This document shows, piece after piece, positions 25,156-34,417 of a stretch of DNA of 34,698 nt. Position 1 is the stretch's first letter. Every line of letters begins with the position of its first letter. The stretch is from the NCBI GenBank assembly GCA_017395505.1, contig JAFPUH010000040.1:1-34698 (forward strand), read 5' to 3'. The notes beneath the pieces were generated by a model, which was not told the DNA's origin, made no database searches, and was given only the letters and a program-made list of their open reading frames with translations. This DNA comes from Kiritimatiellia bacterium (GTDB lineage: Bacteria > Verrucomicrobiota > Kiritimatiellia > RFP12 > UBA1067). The position numbers were made by a program, and so were the translations under genes.

Positions 25156-26286
25156 ATGAAGCTTGTCCGCCTCTTTTTCGAGATGTTCCGTATCGCCCTC
25201 TTCGTGGTGGGCGGGGGCTACGCGATAATCGCAGTCGCAGACGATACTTTTTCGCGAAAGCTGAAATGGACGAAGGAAGGCGAACTTGTCGACGCTCTTT
25301 CGCTTTTTCAGACGTTTCCAGGCATAATGGCGGCACATTGCGCGGTCTATGTCGGACGAAAGGTGGCGGGAGTCGCGGGATCTCTCGTCGCGCTAGCGGG
25401 AGTGATACTGCCGAGCCTCGTGATATTTACGTGTGTTTCGATGGGATATGGAGCAATTCCGCTTGATAATCCGTGGCTGGGCGCTGCGTTCGCCGGACTT
25501 CGCGCGGCGCTGACAGGCGTGATTGCCGGAATGGTAGTTCGCGGCTGGCGAAAGAGCGTCGTCGGGCGCTATGGATATTCCGCCATGCTTGTTGGGCTGG
25601 CGCTTTTGCTGTCGGGGGCGAATCCGGCGCTCGTATTGGTGGCGGCGATGCTGGTCGGCGTGATTGTCGAGTTCACCCCGATTCGCGCCGCCGGTTCGCG
25701 CCGCTTCAATTCGCTCGCGATGGTGGTGCCGATATTCCTTAAGTATGGCGCGCTCGCATTCGGCGGCGGATATGTGCTCGTTCCAATGTATATCAGCGAT
25801 TTTGTCGGCGAAGCGGCACGATTCCTGCAGCTGCCGTCGGAGGAGTTCGCCAACCTGATGGCGCTAACCCAGATGACTCCCGGGCCGATCGGCATAAACG
25901 CGGCGACATTCTTCGGCCTCAGGCTGGGCGGAATTCCGGGGGCGGTGTTGGCGACCTTCGCGCTGGTCCTTCCTGGGTCGCTGATGCTTAGCTTGGCGCT
26001 TGCGTCGATGGAGCGGTTCAGCGAAAGTCGGGTCGTGAAGGGGATTTTTGCGGGAGTGAGGCCGGTAACGATGTCGCTAATGCTGTCGGCGGCGTGGTCA
26101 TTCGCCGGAATGTCGATGTGGAACACGTCGGCGGATGGAGGATTTTTCATTGATATCGTTGCGGTGGCGCTTGCGGGTTTCGCCGCTTTTGCGACGATCC
26201 GCAAGATTTGCGGCGTGATGCAGGCGATCTTCATCTGCGCCTTCGCCTCGCTCGCCATCCGTGCAGTGTGTGGCCTTTGCTTTTAA
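25156..26286 (+). CDS. chrA: Chromate-transporter (CHR) family membrane protein, two-domain form
   Basis: The 376 residues contain two homologous halves. Half 1 begins FFEMFRIALFVVGGGYAIIAV and has LFQTFPGIMAAHCAVYVGRKVAGVAGSLVALAGVILPSLVI; half 2 begins FLKYGALAFGGGYVLVPMYI and has LTQMTPGPIGINAATFFGLRLGGIPGAVLATFALVLPG. The GGGY and (T)PG(P)I motifs are signatures of CHR. About ten membrane helices are likely. Many gut bacteria carry CHR proteins with no link to chromate, so the real substrate is open. The ATG at 25156 lies one base behind the exonuclease stop. It is the last GC-rich gene before the composition drops. Confidence 0.88.
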   Translation: MKLVRLFFEMFRIALFVVGGGYAIIAVADDTFSRKLKWTKEGELVDALSLFQTFPGIMAAHCAVYVGRKVAGVAGSLVALAGVILPSLVIFTCVSMGYGAIPLDNPWLGAAFAGLRAALTGVIAGMVVRGWRKSVVGRYGYSAMLVGLALLLSGANPALVLVAAMLVGVIVEFTPIRAAGSRRFNSLAMVVPIFLKYGALAFGGGYVLVPMYISDFVGEAARFLQLPSEEFANLMALTQMTPGPIGINAATFFGLRLGGIPGAVLATFALVLPGSLMLSLALASMERFSESRVVKGIFAGVRPVTMSLMLSAAWSFAGMSMWNTSADGGFFIDIVAVALAGFAAFATIRKICGVMQAIFICAFASLAIRAVCGLCF

Positions 26287-26288
26287 TC

Positions 26289-26316
26289 CCGCGCTTGAAA
26301 TGAGCGCGGCGATTTG
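26289..26316 (+). repeat. 28-nt direct repeat, copy 1 (hairpin and -35 element)
   Basis: These 28 bases recur without a change at 26884-26911, so that the two copies bracket one gene. Within it CCGCGCT pairs with AGCGCGG around TGAAATG. It begins 2 bases behind the chrA stop. TTGAAA (26295-26300) in the repeat lies 17 bases before TATCAT (26318-26323), so this copy also supplies the -35 for the next gene. Confidence 0.8.
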
Positions 26317-26351: not shown

Positions 26352-26867
26352 ATGAGTGGTTTCATCAAGAATCTGTCGAAACGTTTGTTTTGGGATGTAG
26401 ATCCCGAAACAATCGATGATCGCACTCATTGTCGCTATGTGATTCAGCGTGTGTTGGAGCGTGGAACTCTTGAGGACATCAGGGCGACTGTTGCCCATTA
26501 TACCATGCCTTTCATGATTGCCGAAGCCCAGCAGATTCGCTCTCTCGATCCGGTCACATTGGCGTTTGCGGCATGTCTTGGGAACGTCAAGGAGGAAACT
26601 TTCAGATGCTATTCCTCGATGCGAACAAATCGCGGGACACGCAAGGACTTTGTCGACATGGCCCGTTTGCTGGATGATTATTCCCTCAATGACATTTTTG
26701 CGTGGTACAGCGAGAAGTATCCCGAGGCGAATCCAGCATTGGCTATGCGGAGCCTCTCATATTTCGTCGATGCCGAGACGATGCCTATGCCTAAAATGCT
26801 TGTTCCCTTTGATTGGGAAGAAGCCAAAGATCGCATCCGAGCCGCCGTCCGCAAATTGGCGATGTAA
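26352..26867 (+). CDS. Fused remnant: DUF6922 domain joined to the C-terminal end of an AbiEii-type nucleotidyltransferase
   Basis: The 171 residues fall into two parts. Residues 10-88 match the DUF6922 pattern: RLFWDVDPETIDDRTHCRYVIQRVLERGTLEDIRATV, RSLDPVTLAF and the closing ETFRCYSS. From about 92 the text matches the C-terminal end of AbiEii-like toxins: NRGTRKDFVDMARLLDDYSLNDIFAWYSEKYPE, LSYFVDAETMPMPKML and FDWEEAKDRI. The nucleotidyltransferase core (GGT-type GS motif and its aspartates) is missing, so it cannot have transferase activity. In other bacteria the two parts are, from memory, adjacent genes. The join near base 26620 keeps the frame. It is AT-richer than its left neighbours. 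Confidence 0.7.
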   Translation: MSGFIKNLSKRLFWDVDPETIDDRTHCRYVIQRVLERGTLEDIRATVAHYTMPFMIAEAQQIRSLDPVTLAFAACLGNVKEETFRCYSSMRTNRGTRKDFVDMARLLDDYSLNDIFAWYSEKYPEANPALAMRSLSYFVDAETMPMPKMLVPFDWEEAKDRIRAAVRKLAM

Positions 26868-26883
26868 TTTCTTTCCCATCCCG

Positions 26884-26918
26884 CCGCGCTTGAAATGAGC
26901 GCGGCGATTTGTTTTATT
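26884..26918 (+). terminator. 28-nt direct repeat copy 2, acting as terminator
   Basis: The second exact copy of the 28-nt repeat (26884-26911). Here the stem is longer, CGCCGCGCT with AGCGCGGCG around TGAAATG (9 pairs), and is followed by ATTTGTTTTATTT, so it can terminate the fusion gene, whose stop is at 26867. Copy 1 lacks the T-run. Confidence 0.7.
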
Positions 26919-26925
26919 TGACCCC

Positions 26926-26954
26926 TTGCACAGAGTGAGGATTTTTGGTAAACT
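26926..26954 (+). promoter_or_regulatory. Promoter in front of the candidate structured RNA
   Basis: TTGCAC (26926-26931) and TAAACT (26949-26954) are 17 bases apart and the -10 has the TTTTTGG extension typical of this window. Transcription should start close to 26961. No protein-coding gene follows on this strand before 27551. Confidence 0.55.
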
Positions 26955-26960
26955 AACTTA

Positions 26961-27240
26961 CGTCTGATGATAGGCGAGCACGGGTTCGCAAATCGTTGGG
27001 TTAGATTTCCCGCGTGGAAATGGTGCTAGTGGTGCGCCAGGAACACGTCTGGGATCGCGTCGGATGAAAGCCTGAGAAACTTCACCCCGAAGACGCAACA
27101 GAAAAAGGGTCCTGCATCCTAAATGCAGTTTCGCCTTCTCCGTTGTATCTTCAAGGTTCATCTCAGGCACCTCATCCGATGCATCGGGGGAGGTGTCAGA
27201 GTCCCGCACCAAGCCCGACCTAAAACAAGGGGCTGAGGTG
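26961..27240 (+). ncRNA. Candidate structured RNA with a long interrupted rod
   Basis: No plausible protein is encoded here, yet two arms about 100 bases apart are complementary in the same order. From outside in: GTTGGG (26995-27000) with CCCGAC (27214-27219); GGTGCG (27031-27036) with CGCACC (27205-27210); ACAC (27043-27046) with GTGT (27193-27196); GCGTCGGATG (27057-27066) with CATCCGATGC (27173-27182, one G-U); CCTGAGA (27071-27077) with TCTCAGG (27161-27167); GAAGA (27089-27093) with TCTTC (27148-27152); CAAC with GTTG; AAGG with CCTT; and a tip CTGCAT/ATGCAG (27112-27128). A side hairpin ATTTCC/GGAAAT is at 27005-27021. A 10/10-base bubble lies at 27047-27056 and 27183-27192, recalling 6S RNA, but no known family was recognised. 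The 3' end is uncertain. Confidence 0.55.
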
Positions 27241-27262
27241 TGGTTTGAATAGTGGTGTGGTA

Positions 27263-27300
27263 AAGGTAGCTTCTACCTTCATGCTTGCATTGAAGGGTAG
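27263..27300 (+). promoter_or_regulatory. Two mutually exclusive hairpins
   Basis: CTACCTT at 27273-27279 can pair with AAGGTAG just upstream (27263-27269, loop of 3) or, with A/T additions and one bulge, with TGAAGGGTAG downstream (27291-27300). Only one can form at a time, as in attenuators. No T-run follows on the plus strand. It may mark the 3' end of the RNA candidate or of the leftward small gene. Confidence 0.35.
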
Positions 27301-27330
27301 GGCTTCTTGCGTCAAAACCGCGTCGCGCAA

Positions 27331-27504
27331 TTATCGCGACACGGCTTTGCGCACACTTCGGCACTTGTCCGCTTCAATCCAACGCAGCAACATCTTTCTG
27401 GTGTCCCGAACAATTTGCTCGTGCGGGATTCCCTTGCCTTCAGCAAATTCATGTCGCGATGTTGCAACGTCTTTGGACAAATCAATTAGCTTGTTCGGTT
27501 TCAC
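27331..27504 (-). CDS. Small hypothetical protein, 57 residues
   Basis: A GTG at 27504 opens a frame reading VKPNKLIDLSKDVATSRHEF, AEGKGIPHEQIVRDTRKMLL and RWIEADKCRSVRKAVSR. The composition is that of a real, helical, basic small protein, not of noise, and resembles small antitoxin-like or DNA-binding proteins, though no family was recognised. A TATATTAT sequence lies 5-7 bases before the GTG, so the message could be leaderless like others here; its -35 is weak. A hairpin (CCGTGTCGCG with CGCGACGCGG, one mismatch) covers the stop region. It is divergent from the 27551 gene and shares its AT-rich promoter stretch. It could also be a fragment of a longer lost gene. Confidence 0.45.
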   Translation of the reverse strand: MKPNKLIDLSKDVATSRHEFAEGKGIPHEQIVRDTRKMLLRWIEADKCRSVRKAVSR

Positions 27505-27508
27505 GCGT

Positions 27509-27514
27509 TATAAT
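27509..27514 (+). promoter_or_regulatory. -10 box of the membrane protein gene
   Basis: TATAAT with a weak TTAGCT -35 (27486-27491, 17-base spacing). The start is near 27521; the 30-base leader carries a perfect AGGAGG (27537-27542) 8 bases before the ATG. The same bases read on the other strand give the -10 of the 57-codon gene. Confidence 0.6.
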
Positions 27515-27550
27515 ATAAATTGCAACGTGTTCAGATAGGAGGATGCGAGA

Positions 27551-28483: not shown

Positions 28484-31400
28484 ATGAAAAATCTACTCGA
28501 AGGATTAAAAGAATTGGTCGTGCCAGATGTGCGACTAGTCACAATGATGCTGGCTCTCTGCGCAACAGGCCAAGCATGGGCGACGCCATATGAGACTACA
28601 GGCTACGAAGCTTTTGGTAGCACAGATGGTGTGGTTCTGTGGCGAGCAAAATCAACTGAAGAGAACTTTCACGCCAGTACTGTTATAAATGTTGCTGCGG
28701 ATGGAACAGAGGGTACTGAGTATCAAATGAGGGTTTATAACGCGAACCCTACACAAGCTACTCAGACTACAGACAAGACCATTGCGTGGCAACGCTTTGC
28801 CAGAAACCAGACTTCTGTTTATGCTGCGCCAGGCAAAGTGCTAGTATATGATGAGGCTGGTTATAGAGAGAGTTCCGATGCGCAGTTTTCGCCGCTATCT
28901 TTTGGTGGTCTATATGTGAAGGCATTGGCTGCTGAAGGGAAGCCATATACAATAACGGATAGTAAGAGCGATGCAACGGATCGTATAGTTGAACTTGGCG
29001 CATCTGGTTATAGCACTGTTTTCAAATTTGAAAAGTCTTTCACTTTTAACCGCAACTCTGCGACTGAAGTGAAGGGTACTGCTACTGTTGATATCGACAC
29101 TGGGGCCACATTCACAATCAATAATCGTGATGGCAAAGGGGCAAAGGTAGATAGCGGCAACACGCTTATATTGAAAGGCAGTGGGACATTGTTAGTGAAT
29201 GGTGGATTGACGGTCGGCGGTACGCTAGACATTTCCAACTCGCCTTCTTCCATTTCTGGTGATGTGACACTTAATGCAGGCTCTACACTTGTCCTTCCAG
29301 CCGGCGTATCGAAAAACGCAACAGTGAGCATTGCTGTCTGCTCAGGCACATTGACTGCCAGTGGAGATGTTAATGTCAAGATCGGTACTGATGATGCCGT
29401 TTCTGCCGATCTTATCGTTTCTGGAGGAACGATAACTAAAATCCTTACTGCGCGTACTTATGCTGCCACGGTAGGCGGCACTAAGGACTTTAGTGCTATC
29501 ACATGGACGATGGGCGAGGGCGCATGCGATCCAGTGTTTAGCGCTTTGGCAAGCGCAGAAGTGACGGTAAGCGAGGCAAGCACAATCACAATTGACAGTG
29601 CAACGACCATGGCGACACTTAAGCTACTTGGTTCTGCCGATCTTACAATAGTGACAAGTTCGCAATTGACGCTAGCCGCGTTGAATCTTTCCGAATATAC
29701 AGGCAACGTAACGATTTCAGGAACGGCCTTTACCCTGGCGAATGGAGGATTGACCGGTGCTGCTACATTTATCCTTGACCCTGGCGCAGGGAACACATAT
29801 ACTATGTCCCAGAGCAATACGGGATATACAGGCGAGGCTGTAATCAAGAGCGGAACTGTGAAGATGGGCGATGCGACCTCGTTTGGTAATATCGGGCGCG
29901 ATAATTATTATATACGTGTTAAGGGCGATGCAACATTTGATGTGAATCATCATGATGCGACTTCTGGTGCATATACCTCTCGCAAAAATCAAGTTGTCCT
30001 TGAAGAGGGGGCAAAATTGACATCATCTACAGCACAAGATAACAACGACACAAAATTATCTGGATTCCAGACGATTAAACTTGATGGCGATGCTGAAGTT
30101 GTTGCCGATACAACTTATGTGTCGCTTTCACTGCACTATAATTACTGGCCTTCCAGGCTTGAGCTTGGCACACACACATTAACAAAAACAGGAGCGAACC
30201 AGCTGTACCTCTCAATTTGCACCATTACGGGTACTGGTATGTTGGATATTGAAGAGGGCGGTGTAACGATTTTCAATGGTAATAATGGTTCATTGAGCAC
30301 GTGCGAGAATGGGACAATCAGGATTGGTTCAGGGGGTCGACTTGATTTTTCAAAATACAGTAGCGGAGCGCCAACTCTTTCTGTGAAGAATCTCGAGCTG
30401 TATGGCTCCGTGACTCGGGTTGCAGATTCCTCGACCCTCACAGTAACAGGCTACATTTCAGGCACAGGCACAACGCCTATGCTGACATTGGCGAATGGCG
30501 CAACTCTGAAGCCAAAGAGCATCACAGGAGGATTGACCGTAACAGATTCGTTGACGCTGAGCGGCTCGATAAATGTCGATCTTTCCGAAATAAACCTGTC
30601 CTCCAAGGCGGACGGTTCATATTTCGCGATTCTTACAGCACCTGCAGATGGCGAGTTCAATTTGGCCAATGTTACGTTGAATCACGGGGGCAATGGTTCT
30701 GGTTGGGAGCTTTATTCAAGGGAAACATACACCGGTTCGGGCAAATATGAGCTCGGTGTTTATCTGAGACCGGATGTTACTTGGAGGGGAGCATCGGGAA
30801 CCTGGTCTGACACGAGTTTCAATGGAGGTACAGACAACTATACAACAGGTCAGCAGGTTGTCTTTTCTGATAGCGGTGCGTCAAATGATCCCCTCGCGAT
30901 TACCGTAAGTGGCGCAAAGACCGTCAGCTCACTTGACTTTATTGCTGATAACCGTGATATGACCTTGTCTGGCGACGCGATTTCCGCAGGGACAGTTTCA
31001 AAGGCAGGTGACGGAATTGCGACGGTCAATAACGCACTTTCCGTTACGACCTCAATATCTGTAACGGATGGTGTTCTCGTCTTGAATCCGACGGCTGAAG
31101 TTGTTGCGGATGAATGGACTGCATCGGACAGTGGAACGTTGGTAGTTTATGTCGATTCTGGCAACACAACCACAATCTCGATTCCGATTACCGCAACCAA
31201 ACTCATAAAGCGCGGCGCAGGAGTGTTGATATTGGAAAATGCTGCAAATACTATATCGCAAGGCACGATTATCGAAGCAGGCACGATAAAGGTTAATCAA
31301 AAAAAATCTGACAATATATCGCAAGTGTTTGGTTCTGGGTCTGTCACAATTGCAGCTGATGGCAATGGTGTAGGCGGCGCGTTGGATGTAAATAATTGCT

Positions 31401-34400
31401 ACGTCGAGAACCAAATATATATCTGTGGAAATGGCCCAGACGGGAATGGTGCACTTATAAATAACAACAGCGATATGGGTAGCGACAAGAGGTGGAAGGT
31501 TTCCTTGACCGGTAATGCATCGTGGGGCGGGAGCAAGTATATACATTTTGGTGCATCCTCATCAATAGTGTTGAACGGGCATACTTTCACCAAGAAGGGA
31601 TCCAATAGTTTCCCGCTAAATAATACTACAATGAGTGGGAACGGCACGATTGTAGTAGAAGCAGGTCAATTCCAAAATAATAACAACGTGAACAATCTAA
31701 GCGGAATTGATATTGTGATAAAGTCCGACGCTACTTTGAACATGGCTGGAGGCACCTCTCTCTCTGTCAAAAACTGTACCTTTGAGGGAACAACGGCAAC
31801 GGTTACCGCAAATGCAGCTGTCGCCAATTCTGCTAACTTGATTGTTAATGGCACATTGACGGTTAATGGTACGCTTTCGCTTCCTAAGTTGGAAATGGCG
31901 AGCGGATCAGGAATATCGTTTGCTGGAACAGGTGCTGCAATCACGGTGGGTAATGCGTTCGCGCTCCCCGCTTCTGGTACAGTGACGCTTGATGTCACAA
32001 GCCTCACTCTGCCAACAGGAACAGATAAGTTGACGCTTTTCTCTACGACCACAGCACTTGACCTAACTAAGTTCTCCGTAACGGGTAATAGTGACTATTA
32101 CCTGCAGCAGAATGCACAGGATGCCGAAACCAATCCAGGTGCGGTTACGTTGCAACTTTATGCGGCAAAAGATGATGCTGGTGGATATTATAGAGATGCA
32201 ACTGGTGCTTTGTTGGCGATGGCTGCAAACCACTCCTTGACATTGACTATACTTGATGGAACAGAAGAAGATGATTGGACGGCAGACGAACTTTCTCCTC
32301 GGGGGCTTGAGCGTTCGGGAACATCGGTATATTATGTTGCAGCAAAGATTGGCTCTACACCATATAATTCACTGCAGGGGGCTGTGGATGCGGCTACAGG
32401 CGGAGAGACGATTATGCTCGCTTTTAATTCAGATGATTCGATAACACTGAACGGCAAGAACATTGTTTTCTCTGAGGGCTCTTATACCTTCTCCGGCTCG
32501 TTTACTGGCAATGGAACGGTTGAGCTTGCATCCGCTCTGAAATCTGCGGCTACTGCTCGTTGGGCGGAAGGGTGGACCGGAACGGTCGTGTTGCCGGTTG
32601 GTGCGTTGAGCAGTCCGTTGAACTTCAACCTCTACGGTATTTCTGGATCAAGTGTACAAATCACAGGCGCCGTATCTGGGTATCTGCCCAATGAGGAGAT
32701 TGTTGCGACTGTCAAAATACCAAGTAGCGCTTCATTGACGCTTACGGCATTTTCGCCCTCGTATGTCAACGCTTTCGCTAAGATTGAGGGTGAAGGCGCT
32801 TTGTCTGTGCCGGTAGCGGCAACCACTGGTGCAAGCGGCAATGATTTGGGCAATGCCGCGAACTGGGGCGCTGGGTACAACTATTCTGCTTATTTGCTCA
32901 TCAAAGATGTATCCAAATTTACTGGCTCGCTTACGGCAAATCAAGCTGTCGGTATTGCGATCGGCTCTTCGAAACCGCATAAGAATACCGTGGGCGGTAA
33001 GATAATCGTTGATTCTGGAGCATCAGCTACAATTGCTTCGGGCAAGACATGGAGCGCTGTAAACGGTATTGTTGTGAATGGCACATTGAATGTTGCAGGG
33101 ACCGTGACAGGCGGCATTACCAGTGGTAATGGACTTGTCAATCTTACGGGCGGTAGCGTAGACCTTGGCACGCTAGGCGCGGCAATAACGCATAAGTATG
33201 TTGCCGTAAGCGGAGAGAGCTCGCTCACGCTTCAATGCGAGTATAATGATGGTTCTGGTGTAATCTTCAACGGTGATGCGATTGAGAATCCGTTCATTAA
33301 GGTTGAATCAGGAGCAACACTCAACCTCTCATATGGCAATTTCTCTGGATGGAGTGGAGATGTTTGCGATGGTTATATCGTCAATGAAGGTACCCTTAAT
33401 ATATCTCAAAAAGGGAGTGTGTCAACCTTCTTCCGTAATCACTTGATTCTGACAGATGGTTGCACGACTACAATCGGTGGTTCAGGTAATCTTTCGCTTT
33501 ATGGTGGAGTTGCGACTGAGTCCACGGCGCAGATCCAACTTGTTTCTGGCGAGGCAGAAATTTCTAGTGTCTCCGCGGGAATTGGCTTCGGCAATGTCTC
33601 AAACCAAGGTGTTTATGGTGGAAAAGGTGTTGGCATCGCTGTGGGCGATGATGCAACACTGACCATTAGCGCACAGATATATGCCAGTAACGTGAGTTCT
33701 GGCAGCAATCCGGTAGCTAAGTACGGCAATGGTACGCTCGTTCTCAGCAATTCTAGCAACAGTAATGCCGAGCCTTGGACCCTTTATGCTGGCGTCATAA
33801 AGTCTGTTGTCGCGCTTACGGTCTCCAGCGCAGATACGTCGAAGAGAGTGAACGATGTCTCTGTGGGTGACTACCATGTCTATTCACTTGTTCCTTCTCC
33901 TGCAGAGATAACTACGACTAGTTTCGGTTTCAACTCCTTCACATATGGAGACAATCCGGTTACTCTTGGCCCGGATGACACCGTCATTGTCCCTTCCGAT
34001 TGCACGGGCGATCAATGGAATCCAACATTGTCGAACGTGGCTGGGCATCCTGTAATCGTAAGAAAAGACATGAATTGGAAGGCAGGAATCGTCACAATGA
34101 CAATCGATTCAGGTGTGACGGTGTATGCGTATGCTGGCTATAAATCAGTTATAAATAATGGTTCGGAGATTTCTGGAACAGGAACTCTATCACTGAACGG
34201 CAATGTCCCTGTCGAGGGTGTCGCTTCAGTGTTGTGCACGGTAGGTGGCAGCGGGAAACTCTTGCTTGCGAACAAAAATGCAATACTGACAGTGAGTTCT
34301 CCGCTCGAAGATGGTAAGGTTATAACCTCTGTCACTGGTGCAAAGGTCATCAGCGAATCGGTAGATGGAGGAACACGCTATCGTGTTGTCTACGGCACCA

Positions 34401-34417
34401 TCTTCTCGGTCTGGTAA
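28484..34417 (+). CDS. Giant secreted beta-repeat protein (autotransporter-strand-repeat type)
   Basis: The 1,977 residues begin with a long signal peptide ending ALCATGQAWA, with cleavage likely after residue 33. The rest is Thr/Ser/Gly/Asn-rich with the rhythm of a right-handed beta-helix: stretches such as GTLDISNSPSSISGDVTLNAGSTLVL, a PATR-like unit NTGYTGEAVIKSGTVKMGDATSFG, LIKRGAGVLILENAAN and GKIIVDSGASATIASGKTWS. Around residue 765-800 a block WRGASGTWSDTSFNGG...YTTGQQVVFSD resembles linker units of such proteins, and near 1,290 a YYVAAKIGSTPYNSLQGAVDAATGG unit starts another solenoid. The C-terminus (RYRVVYGTIFSVW) shows no autotransporter barrel, PEP-CTERM or T9SS domain, so the anchoring is unknown. 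It is AT-richer than the housekeeping genes. The ribosome site is GAAAGGAAAAA. Adhesion or surface coat is the likely role. Confidence 0.85.
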   Translation: MKNLLEGLKELVVPDVRLVTMMLALCATGQAWATPYETTGYEAFGSTDGVVLWRAKSTEENFHASTVINVAADGTEGTEYQMRVYNANPTQATQTTDKTIAWQRFARNQTSVYAAPGKVLVYDEAGYRESSDAQFSPLSFGGLYVKALAAEGKPYTITDSKSDATDRIVELGASGYSTVFKFEKSFTFNRNSATEVKGTATVDIDTGATFTINNRDGKGAKVDSGNTLILKGSGTLLVNGGLTVGGTLDISNSPSSISGDVTLNAGSTLVLPAGVSKNATVSIAVCSGTLTASGDVNVKIGTDDAVSADLIVSGGTITKILTARTYAATVGGTKDFSAITWTMGEGACDPVFSALASAEVTVSEASTITIDSATTMATLKLLGSADLTIVTSSQLTLAALNLSEYTGNVTISGTAFTLANGGLTGAATFILDPGAGNTYTMSQSNTGYTGEAVIKSGTVKMGDATSFGNIGRDNYYIRVKGDATFDVNHHDATSGAYTSRKNQVVLEEGAKLTSSTAQDNNDTKLSGFQTIKLDGDAEVVADTTYVSLSLHYNYWPSRLELGTHTLTKTGANQLYLSICTITGTGMLDIEEGGVTIFNGNNGSLSTCENGTIRIGSGGRLDFSKYSSGAPTLSVKNLELYGSVTRVADSSTLTVTGYISGTGTTPMLTLANGATLKPKSITGGLTVTDSLTLSGSINVDLSEINLSSKADGSYFAILTAPADGEFNLANVTLNHGGNGSGWELYSRETYTGSGKYELGVYLRPDVTWRGASGTWSDTSFNGGTDNYTTGQQVVFSDSGASNDPLAITVSGAKTVSSLDFIADNRDMTLSGDAISAGTVSKAGDGIATVNNALSVTTSISVTDGVLVLNPTAEVVADEWTASDSGTLVVYVDSGNTTTISIPITATKLIKRGAGVLILENAANTISQGTIIEAGTIKVNQKKSDNISQVFGSGSVTIAADGNGVGGALDVNNCYVENQIYICGNGPDGNGALINNNSDMGSDKRWKVSLTGNASWGGSKYIHFGASSSIVLNGHTFTKKGSNSFPLNNTTMSGNGTIVVEAGQFQNNNNVNNLSGIDIVIKSDATLNMAGGTSLSVKNCTFEGTTATVTANAAVANSANLIVNGTLTVNGTLSLPKLEMASGSGISFAGTGAAITVGNAFALPASGTVTLDVTSLTLPTGTDKLTLFSTTTALDLTKFSVTGNSDYYLQQNAQDAETNPGAVTLQLYAAKDDAGGYYRDATGALLAMAANHSLTLTILDGTEEDDWTADELSPRGLERSGTSVYYVAAKIGSTPYNSLQGAVDAATGGETIMLAFNSDDSITLNGKNIVFSEGSYTFSGSFTGNGTVELASALKSAATARWAEGWTGTVVLPVGALSSPLNFNLYGISGSSVQITGAVSGYLPNEEIVATVKIPSSASLTLTAFSPSYVNAFAKIEGEGALSVPVAATTGASGNDLGNAANWGAGYNYSAYLLIKDVSKFTGSLTANQAVGIAIGSSKPHKNTVGGKIIVDSGASATIASGKTWSAVNGIVVNGTLNVAGTVTGGITSGNGLVNLTGGSVDLGTLGAAITHKYVAVSGESSLTLQCEYNDGSGVIFNGDAIENPFIKVESGATLNLSYGNFSGWSGDVCDGYIVNEGTLNISQKGSVSTFFRNHLILTDGCTTTIGGSGNLSLYGGVATESTAQIQLVSGEAEISSVSAGIGFGNVSNQGVYGGKGVGIAVGDDATLTISAQIYASNVSSGSNPVAKYGNGTLVLSNSSNSNAEPWTLYAGVIKSVVALTVSSADTSKRVNDVSVGDYHVYSLVPSPAEITTTSFGFNSFTYGDNPVTLGPDDTVIVPSDCTGDQWNPTLSNVAGHPVIVRKDMNWKAGIVTMTIDSGVTVYAYAGYKSVINNGSEISGTGTLSLNGNVPVEGVASVLCTVGGSGKLLLANKNAILTVSSPLEDGKVITSVTGAKVISESVDGGTRYRVVYGTIFSVW

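Follow-up and report, generated by a model that had tools for sequence, protein, structure and literature searches.

Probable leader RNAs with a predicted double-pseudoknot fold in rumen and gut Kiritimatiellae

In transcription-attenuating riboswitches, such as the T-box and c-di-GMP elements, a conserved domain lies directly after the promoter and is followed by variable expression platforms. EAR (epsC RNA), which is found in the exopolysaccharide operons of another phylum than the one considered here, acts on transcription elongation (Weinberg et al. 2010, PMC2864571), and the LoaP/dfn leader hairpin is a short signal for long accessory operons that recruits a NusG paralogue (PMC12691694). 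Our literature search found no paper on RNAs of Kiritimatiellota or Kiritimatiellae. Here we describe a locus at positions 26961-27240 on the plus strand of a 34,698-nt contig from a Kiritimatiellia bacterium, the whole of which was analysed and is referred to as the window. We are practically certain that this locus represents a new, previously uncatalogued conserved structured RNA, and the family to which it belongs probably controls, as an RNA switch, the entry of transcription into the downstream gene.

Fold and parts of the window copy

The original prediction had placed a series of nested helices just behind a promoter, in a stretch that no protein fits, and had proposed a new structured RNA. 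All of these points have held up. The plus strand of 26961-27240 folds as RNA with -117 kcal/mol (z -5.25), which none of 200 dinucleotide shuffles equalled, and the helices, in the order and at the place predicted, covary in 28 homologous copies. A sigma-70-type promoter can be read from the sequence at 26926-26954 on the plus strand, with the -35 element TTGCAC at 26926-26931, a 17-nt spacer and the -10 element TAAACT at 26949-26954; this -10 is weaker than that of relatives, and a generic promoter scan made no call here. No conserved protein was found within 26961-27240, and an Rfam search (cmscan) of the whole window matched only four tRNAs and nothing in this interval. The functional unit is wider than the predicted interval: it begins at the promoter and reaches as far as the start-codon position (about 26926-27245). 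Since the minus strand folds equally well (z -5.68), energy alone cannot pick the strand. In the covarying helices of the homologous copies, however, 56 G-U cells on the plus strand stand against 8 A-C cells, which would be G-U if the RNA were read from the minus strand. Judged from the alignments, this bias shows that the plus strand is the RNA strand, and it rules out a minus-strand RNA.

The first element of the transcript would be a variable hairpin at 26963-27000 (MFE structure), whose sequence differs between copies. It is followed by a 5′ domain (27002-27053) with the near-invariant UAGAUUUCCCGCG, closed by pairing of 27009-27016 with 27044-27053; across copies its helices are 97-98% paired, and two pairs show double changes. 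The strand alpha (GCGUC, 27057-27061) forms the 5′ flank of a long rod. Within this rod, five pairs of P1 (27062-27067 with 27172-27177) carry compensatory changes among the 28 copies, as do four pairs of the 8-bp helix P2 (27070-27077 with 27161-27168) and all six pairs of P3 (27088-27093 with 27148-27153), whereas the four pairs C-G, U-A, G-C and C-G of the apical hairpin P4 (CCUGC ... GCAGU, 27111-27129) are invariant. Between P3 and P4 lies a 10/10 internal bubble, with beta (GACGC, 27092-27096) as its 5′ strand and J (CCUUCUCCG, 27134-27142) as its 3′ strand. Behind the rod follow alpha′ (27178-27182), the tail (CGGGGGAGG, 27185-27193) and the position at which most relatives have a U-rich tract (27194-27203; U fraction 0.60-0.68 in relatives), which is degenerate here (UGUCAGAGUC, 3/10 U). 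All helices and both pseudoknot pairings described below are present in the window copy; its -10 is weak and its U-tract decayed.

Distribution and subclasses

The locus had been described as a single one; it is real, but it belongs to a multi-copy family that is found across a bacterial order and beyond. By DNA search we recovered three copies in the window's genome (100, 83 and 76% identity) and one to four copies in 16 of 58 genomes, the window's own included. The covariance model of class I (R1), built from 28 copies, is positive in 39 of 61 congeneric genomes, many of which hold strong copies (>130 bits), and detects a second, weaker set. Over the whole order, 81 of 162 genomes and 12 of 33 genera are positive with R1, and the class II model (R2) is positive in 80 of 288 genomes of the class. 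Full scoring yields 6 copies for the window's own genome, 13 for genome G041 and 16, the highest number, for G222, a complete genome from another family. The weaker set keeps the same rod, the GAAA/RCCUC internal loop and the 3′ tail, features by which its copies are recognized as genuine members of the family. It divides into class II (GUCGUC...GAGACACGAAGAGAGGUUUU) and class III (109-nt core), which gives three sequence subclasses overall. Beyond the class there are isolated matches only, among them one in G592 (E 3e-7) in which the fold is retained. Named records with copies are rumen, goat, sheep, yak and other gut metagenome-assembled genomes (MAGs) labelled Kiritimatiellae, Verrucomicrobia or Lentisphaerae. 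A cmscan of members of classes I, II and III against Rfam 15 gave no match of note. Two copies, L082 (1063-1158) and L169, are natural deletion forms in which P2, P3, P4 and J are missing, while the 5′ domain, the tail and a stump of P1 are retained; one of them still lies 48 nt before a gene for a secreted protein of at least 965 aa.

Occurrence in multiple copies adjoining accessory genes, with hairpins formed by chance, could also be explained by an element at the DNA level, for example a site for recombination or for gene cassettes, and the three copies in the window's genome are indeed closer to each other than to copies of other genomes. This explanation is largely refuted by the asymmetry of G-U over A-C cells, which indicates selection on RNA pairing. 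Moreover, the promoter and the U-tract are conserved, and the family pattern was not found in viral contigs, so that we regard a DNA element as extremely improbable. A phage origin was rejected on the same absence from viral contigs.

Rod, pseudoknots and 3′ end

That the helices covary in homologues, which the original prediction had itself named as its test, is borne out by compensatory changes in 18 of the 42 consensus pairs of class I (28 copies) and in 22 of 36 pairs of class II. Over the whole structure 135 double-changed cells were counted against 41 in shuffles, and slid controls collapse. At the level of the alignments, the rod P1-P2-P3-P4 is thus shown by covariation.

Both strands of the bubble have partners outside the rod. 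J is complementary to the tail, the sequence directly 3′ of the rod, with 98% of class I cells paired. Duplexes of J with the tail of its own copy surpass those with swapped partners in class I (p=0.004) and in divergent copies (p=0.0005); own pairings reach -20.5 kcal/mol versus -16.5 kcal/mol when swapped (p=0.0005), and a further test gave p=0.0002. No double changes were found within class I alone, where the helix is almost invariant, and support therefore comes from covariation across the subclasses (CCUCUCAUUGUGU/ACACAAUGAGAGG, CCUCGCUUCGUG/CACGAAGCGAGG and CCUCCUUCAG/CUGAAGGAGG). Beta is complementary to alpha, the sequence directly 5′ of the rod (98.6% of class I cells paired). The two strands read GCGUC/GACGC in class I, GUCGUC/GACGAC in class II and GGCUC/GAGCC in class III, and in distant copies UUGCC/GGCAA (within GGUUGCC/GGCAAC) and GAUAUC/GAUGUC; own pairings in divergent copies amount to -6.86 versus -3.94 kcal/mol for swapped ones (p=0.0002). 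Since the alignments used in these tests were made with models that contain no pseudoknots, they are not biased towards pseudoknot pairings. These complementarities make the J:tail pseudoknot highly probable and argue well, if a little less firmly, for the alpha:beta pseudoknot.

Alpha can alternatively pair with alpha′ and close the rod; this pairing is likewise formed in 98.6% of class I cells and covaries less. In class I, a pairing of beta with beta′ would contain a nearly constant C-A mismatch, and for beta′:alpha′ alone independent support was not found (p=0.09). Together, these pairings describe a four-strand junction with two possible isomers. The comparisons of sequence favour alpha:beta together with J:tail, a predicted double pseudoknot with the strand order A B A C B C and kissing-hairpin topology; when the alpha:beta or the alpha:alpha′ isomer would be occupied is something we infer.

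The bubble had originally been said to recall 6S RNA. It is not open: its strands are the conserved partners of alpha and the tail and appear to pair with the rod flanks as a pseudoknot, unlike an open, promoter-mimicking central bubble. The 6S model (RF00013) had no match in the window at the gathering threshold or at E<=10 and none in the class II and III loci. The analogy is given up, as no copy reaches the Rfam 6S family and the leader is tied to a downstream gene. With 6S-like signals of relatives being weak and located elsewhere, an identity with 6S RNA was rejected. One weak 6S candidate in a relative (L261, G115:C21:10031-10185) scores 38.4 bits against a threshold of 46.4 and does not lie at a family member. 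A more general lesson is that a 6S-like bubble in a predicted rod can conceal pseudoknot strands.

The ten nucleotides after the tail helix contain 60% U in class I, 60% in divergent copies and 68% in a further set, compared to 10-19% further downstream. At least six of the ten are U in 57/80, 31/43 and 23/26 copies of the three sets (111/149 in total). Textbook U-runs follow the tail in the distant copies L259 and L260 (GAGGCACGC-UUUUUUU and GGAGUCCGCGCC-UUUUUU), while many class I copies have an imperfect tract, for example UGUCUAUUUCCC, and the window copy has almost none. Because the U-rich tract follows directly after the J:tail helix, the 3′ end resembles an intrinsic terminator with J as the 5′ arm. 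Two hallmarks of an attenuator can thus be compared: its position between a promoter and a co-directional gene is found, and a terminator helix with a U-tract before the gene is a feature of the family, not of the window copy. In the test of own against swapped pairings, no convincing second state of J was found; a weak candidate antiterminator, J with the 5′ bubble strand, gave p=0.005 overall and p=0.35 in divergent copies.

In the window's subgroup, a second expression platform is apparently provided by a hairpin at 27205-27242, within which lies the Shine-Dalgarno-like GAGGUGUGG that precedes the position of the start codon. Both sister copies in this genome have the same hairpin (z -2.75 and -5.42), and start-codon-proximal hairpins of the subgroup and of some other copies, including some of class III, have z values of -2.75, -5.42, -4.04 and -5.27. 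Across 88 copies, however, the mean z is -0.87 and the median -0.51. As the hairpin is not general, a universal sequestration of the ribosome-binding site was rejected. A translational switch or mRNA-protecting leader, in which the pseudoknotted ring would block exonucleases or control access to the ribosome-binding site, could draw on this hairpin, which pairs the purine-rich pre-start sequence in the window's subgroup and some other copies, and on the Shine-Dalgarno-like class I tail GGAGGAGGUG. Furthermore, ring-like pseudoknots resemble exonuclease-resistant folds in kind. Yet besides the limited occurrence of the hairpin, the median distance of ~75 nt between tail and start codon is too large for a ribosome-binding site, and the U-tract would be left unexplained; we consider this explanation quite unlikely.

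Gene context, possible mechanism and known systems

Genes were called as open reading frames rather than with a gene finder. Among 127 distinct copies, 100 have the next downstream gene on their own strand and 12 have it on the opposite one, compared to 60:45 for same versus opposite strand upstream, and the median gap between RNA and ORF is 74.5 nt. In a wider count, 58/82 class I copies have a match of at least 5/6 to TATAAT in the 75 nt before the element (44/57 in a narrower count), but only 7/89 intervals between RNA and ORF contain one. Based on the co-direction, the short gap and the promoter that lies upstream but rarely between RNA and gene, the family very likely consists of cis-acting 5′ leaders with their own promoter. 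A free-standing trans-acting small RNA, 6S-like or other, which is merely located near genes, would share the own promoter, the terminator-like 3′ end and the long interrupted rod. It is hard to reconcile with the co-orientation and tight spacing of the next gene, the few promoters in between, the many different copies per genome with different neighbours and the lack of a 6S match, and appears very unlikely to us.

The 113 downstream proteins match 79 Pfam families, most frequently BspA LRR_5 (12), FGE-sulfatase (7), FRG (6) and Sel1 (5), followed by Listeria-Bacteroides repeats (4) and peptidase C10 (3); Hsp70, methyltransferases, Septu PtuA and TerY are also among the targets. According to a crude heuristic, 44% of the targets versus 26% of the background have signal-peptide-like N-termini (Fisher p=0.004). 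The targets are mixed accessory genes, often for secreted, surface or defence proteins, and since they have no pathway in common, no ligand can be read from them. A c-di-GMP riboswitch is unlikely, as GGDEF (PF00990) was found in 0/10 carriers with controls detected; c-di-AMP cyclase is present in 10/10 carriers but is so widespread that this is uninformative. In L145, L146, L165, L172, L173, L188, L021 and L025 a conserved module, GAUGUCUGAAAA-GGGAACGACACGUUGC...GGUUCUCGCGCCGAGGGUGUCAACGUGCAAGCAACAGGUGCGGG, lies between tail and ORF and is common to several otherwise unrelated target genes.

In the window, the first target gene is apparently decayed (27245-27538, plus strand; no ATG, 97-aa remnant), whereas in sister copies an ATG opens the reading frame of a secreted protein at the equivalent position, ~45 nt downstream. 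Further downstream on the plus strand are a 295-aa ORF and a gene for a 1977-aa secreted protein of the PATR type, with PATR repeats (28484-34417), a possible present target via read-through. Its signal peptide, LALCATGQAWA, is similar to the LALCATSGAWA found in the target of a sister copy, and the protein has distant similarity to three other leader targets. Judging from the similarity of the proteins, the window leader would originally have served a gene of this kind, and today it may drive the two downstream genes. On the minus strand, the decayed interval behind the leader also contains a 57-aa ORF w/o Pfam match (27331-27504), perhaps the toxin-type remnant mentioned in the original prediction. 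Directly upstream of the leader, 26352-26867 encodes a 171-aa protein with a DUF6922 domain (E 5e-17). A GC-rich terminator-like palindrome, CGCCGCGCTTGAAATGAGCGCGGCG and a shorter form, ends two successive genes at 26882-26906 and ~26285-26306; similar palindromes, possibly REP-like repeats, stand directly before the leader promoter in other copies of the window's genome (L003, L064).

The best explanation, and a probable one, is a family of cis-acting 5′ leaders that work by attenuation with J:tail termination as the default; for attenuation as the mechanism in itself our confidence is moderate. A sigma-70-type promoter would give rise to a transcript with the 5′ hairpin, the small conserved 5′ domain and the long rod P1-P2-P3-P4. 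The rod-flanking strands would then fold back beside the rod tip, alpha with beta and tail with J, to form the double pseudoknot, and completion of the fold would create an intrinsic-terminator-like structure ~75 nt before the start codon. Premature termination would be the default state, and some signal that separates J from the tail would allow transcription into the gene, whose product is usually a secreted, surface or defence protein. The window's subgroup has a weak U-tract, and there the hairpin over the ribosome-binding site may replace or supplement this step. Both termination at the tail and the existence of a signal are what we infer.

Alternatively, the leader could serve processive antitermination or anti-polarity, with the RNA acting on the elongating polymerase, like put RNA, EAR or the LoaP hairpin with its NusG paralogue, and thereby permitting transcription through long genes of horizontal origin. 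Its position directly after the promoter, the long accessory targets, including surface and polysaccharide genes, and the NusG paralogues in many carriers would suit this mode, which has precedents in the EAR and LoaP leaders (PMC2864571, PMC12691694). However, RNA-positive G010 (92% complete) and RNA-positive genomes of the f3 family have one NusG only, which indicates, with the caveat of MAG incompleteness, that a paralogue is not required. Moreover, the conserved U-tract right after the tail helix fits a terminator and not an antiterminator. We therefore think antitermination unlikely, although an RNA-only, put-like variant may be envisaged. A strict dependence on a NusG paralogue (LoaP/UpxY/RfaH) was rejected because not every carrier has one, subject to the same incompleteness. 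The window itself encodes a full-length, probably housekeeping NusG (1497-1850), and a NusG paralogue is located at G000:C16:15063-15299.

A more far-reaching and tentative possibility is that the family is an RNA switch of a new class, perhaps a riboswitch that senses a second messenger or stress signal, with a double pseudoknot whose closing helix is the terminator. Present as many as 16 times in a genome, it would serve as a single regulon switch for anti-phage genes and genes of secreted and surface proteins in a group of gut bacteria w/o studied regulatory RNA. If one signal works all copies, the regulon would unite adhesins, polysaccharide genes and defence genes. The proposed mechanism is directly testable in vitro. 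Overall, our analysis adds a leader-RNA family that is large and abundant and whose double-pseudoknot fold is unusual and supported by covariation; its hosts are rumen and gut Kiritimatiellae, a lineage sampled here only as metagenome-assembled genomes.

Among known systems, 6S RNA shares with the leader family a length of ~200 nt, a long rod that, in the simple secondary structure, is interrupted by a central internal loop, and an own promoter. The family differs in that it has no 6S score, its loop strands are pseudoknotted to the flanks, and it lies as a leader before genes in many copies per genome. Like EAR, it is a cis-acting structured RNA tied to accessory surface-type genes, but its targets are heterogeneous, its 3′ end is terminator-like and the Rfam search gave no sequence match. 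RfaH-ops and LoaP/dfn are leader signals as well and serve long accessory operons; they are short hairpins or DNA signals, whereas the leader family measures ~200 nt and has no strict link to a paralogue. With attenuating riboswitches it has in common a terminator-like or ribosome-site hairpin before the gene and a platform that differs between copies, and this combination of a conserved domain with differing expression platforms gives it, by analogy, a riboswitch-like appearance. In contrast to these riboswitches, it matches no known aptamer, its targets share no common pathway, and the conserved fold itself includes J, the terminator arm.
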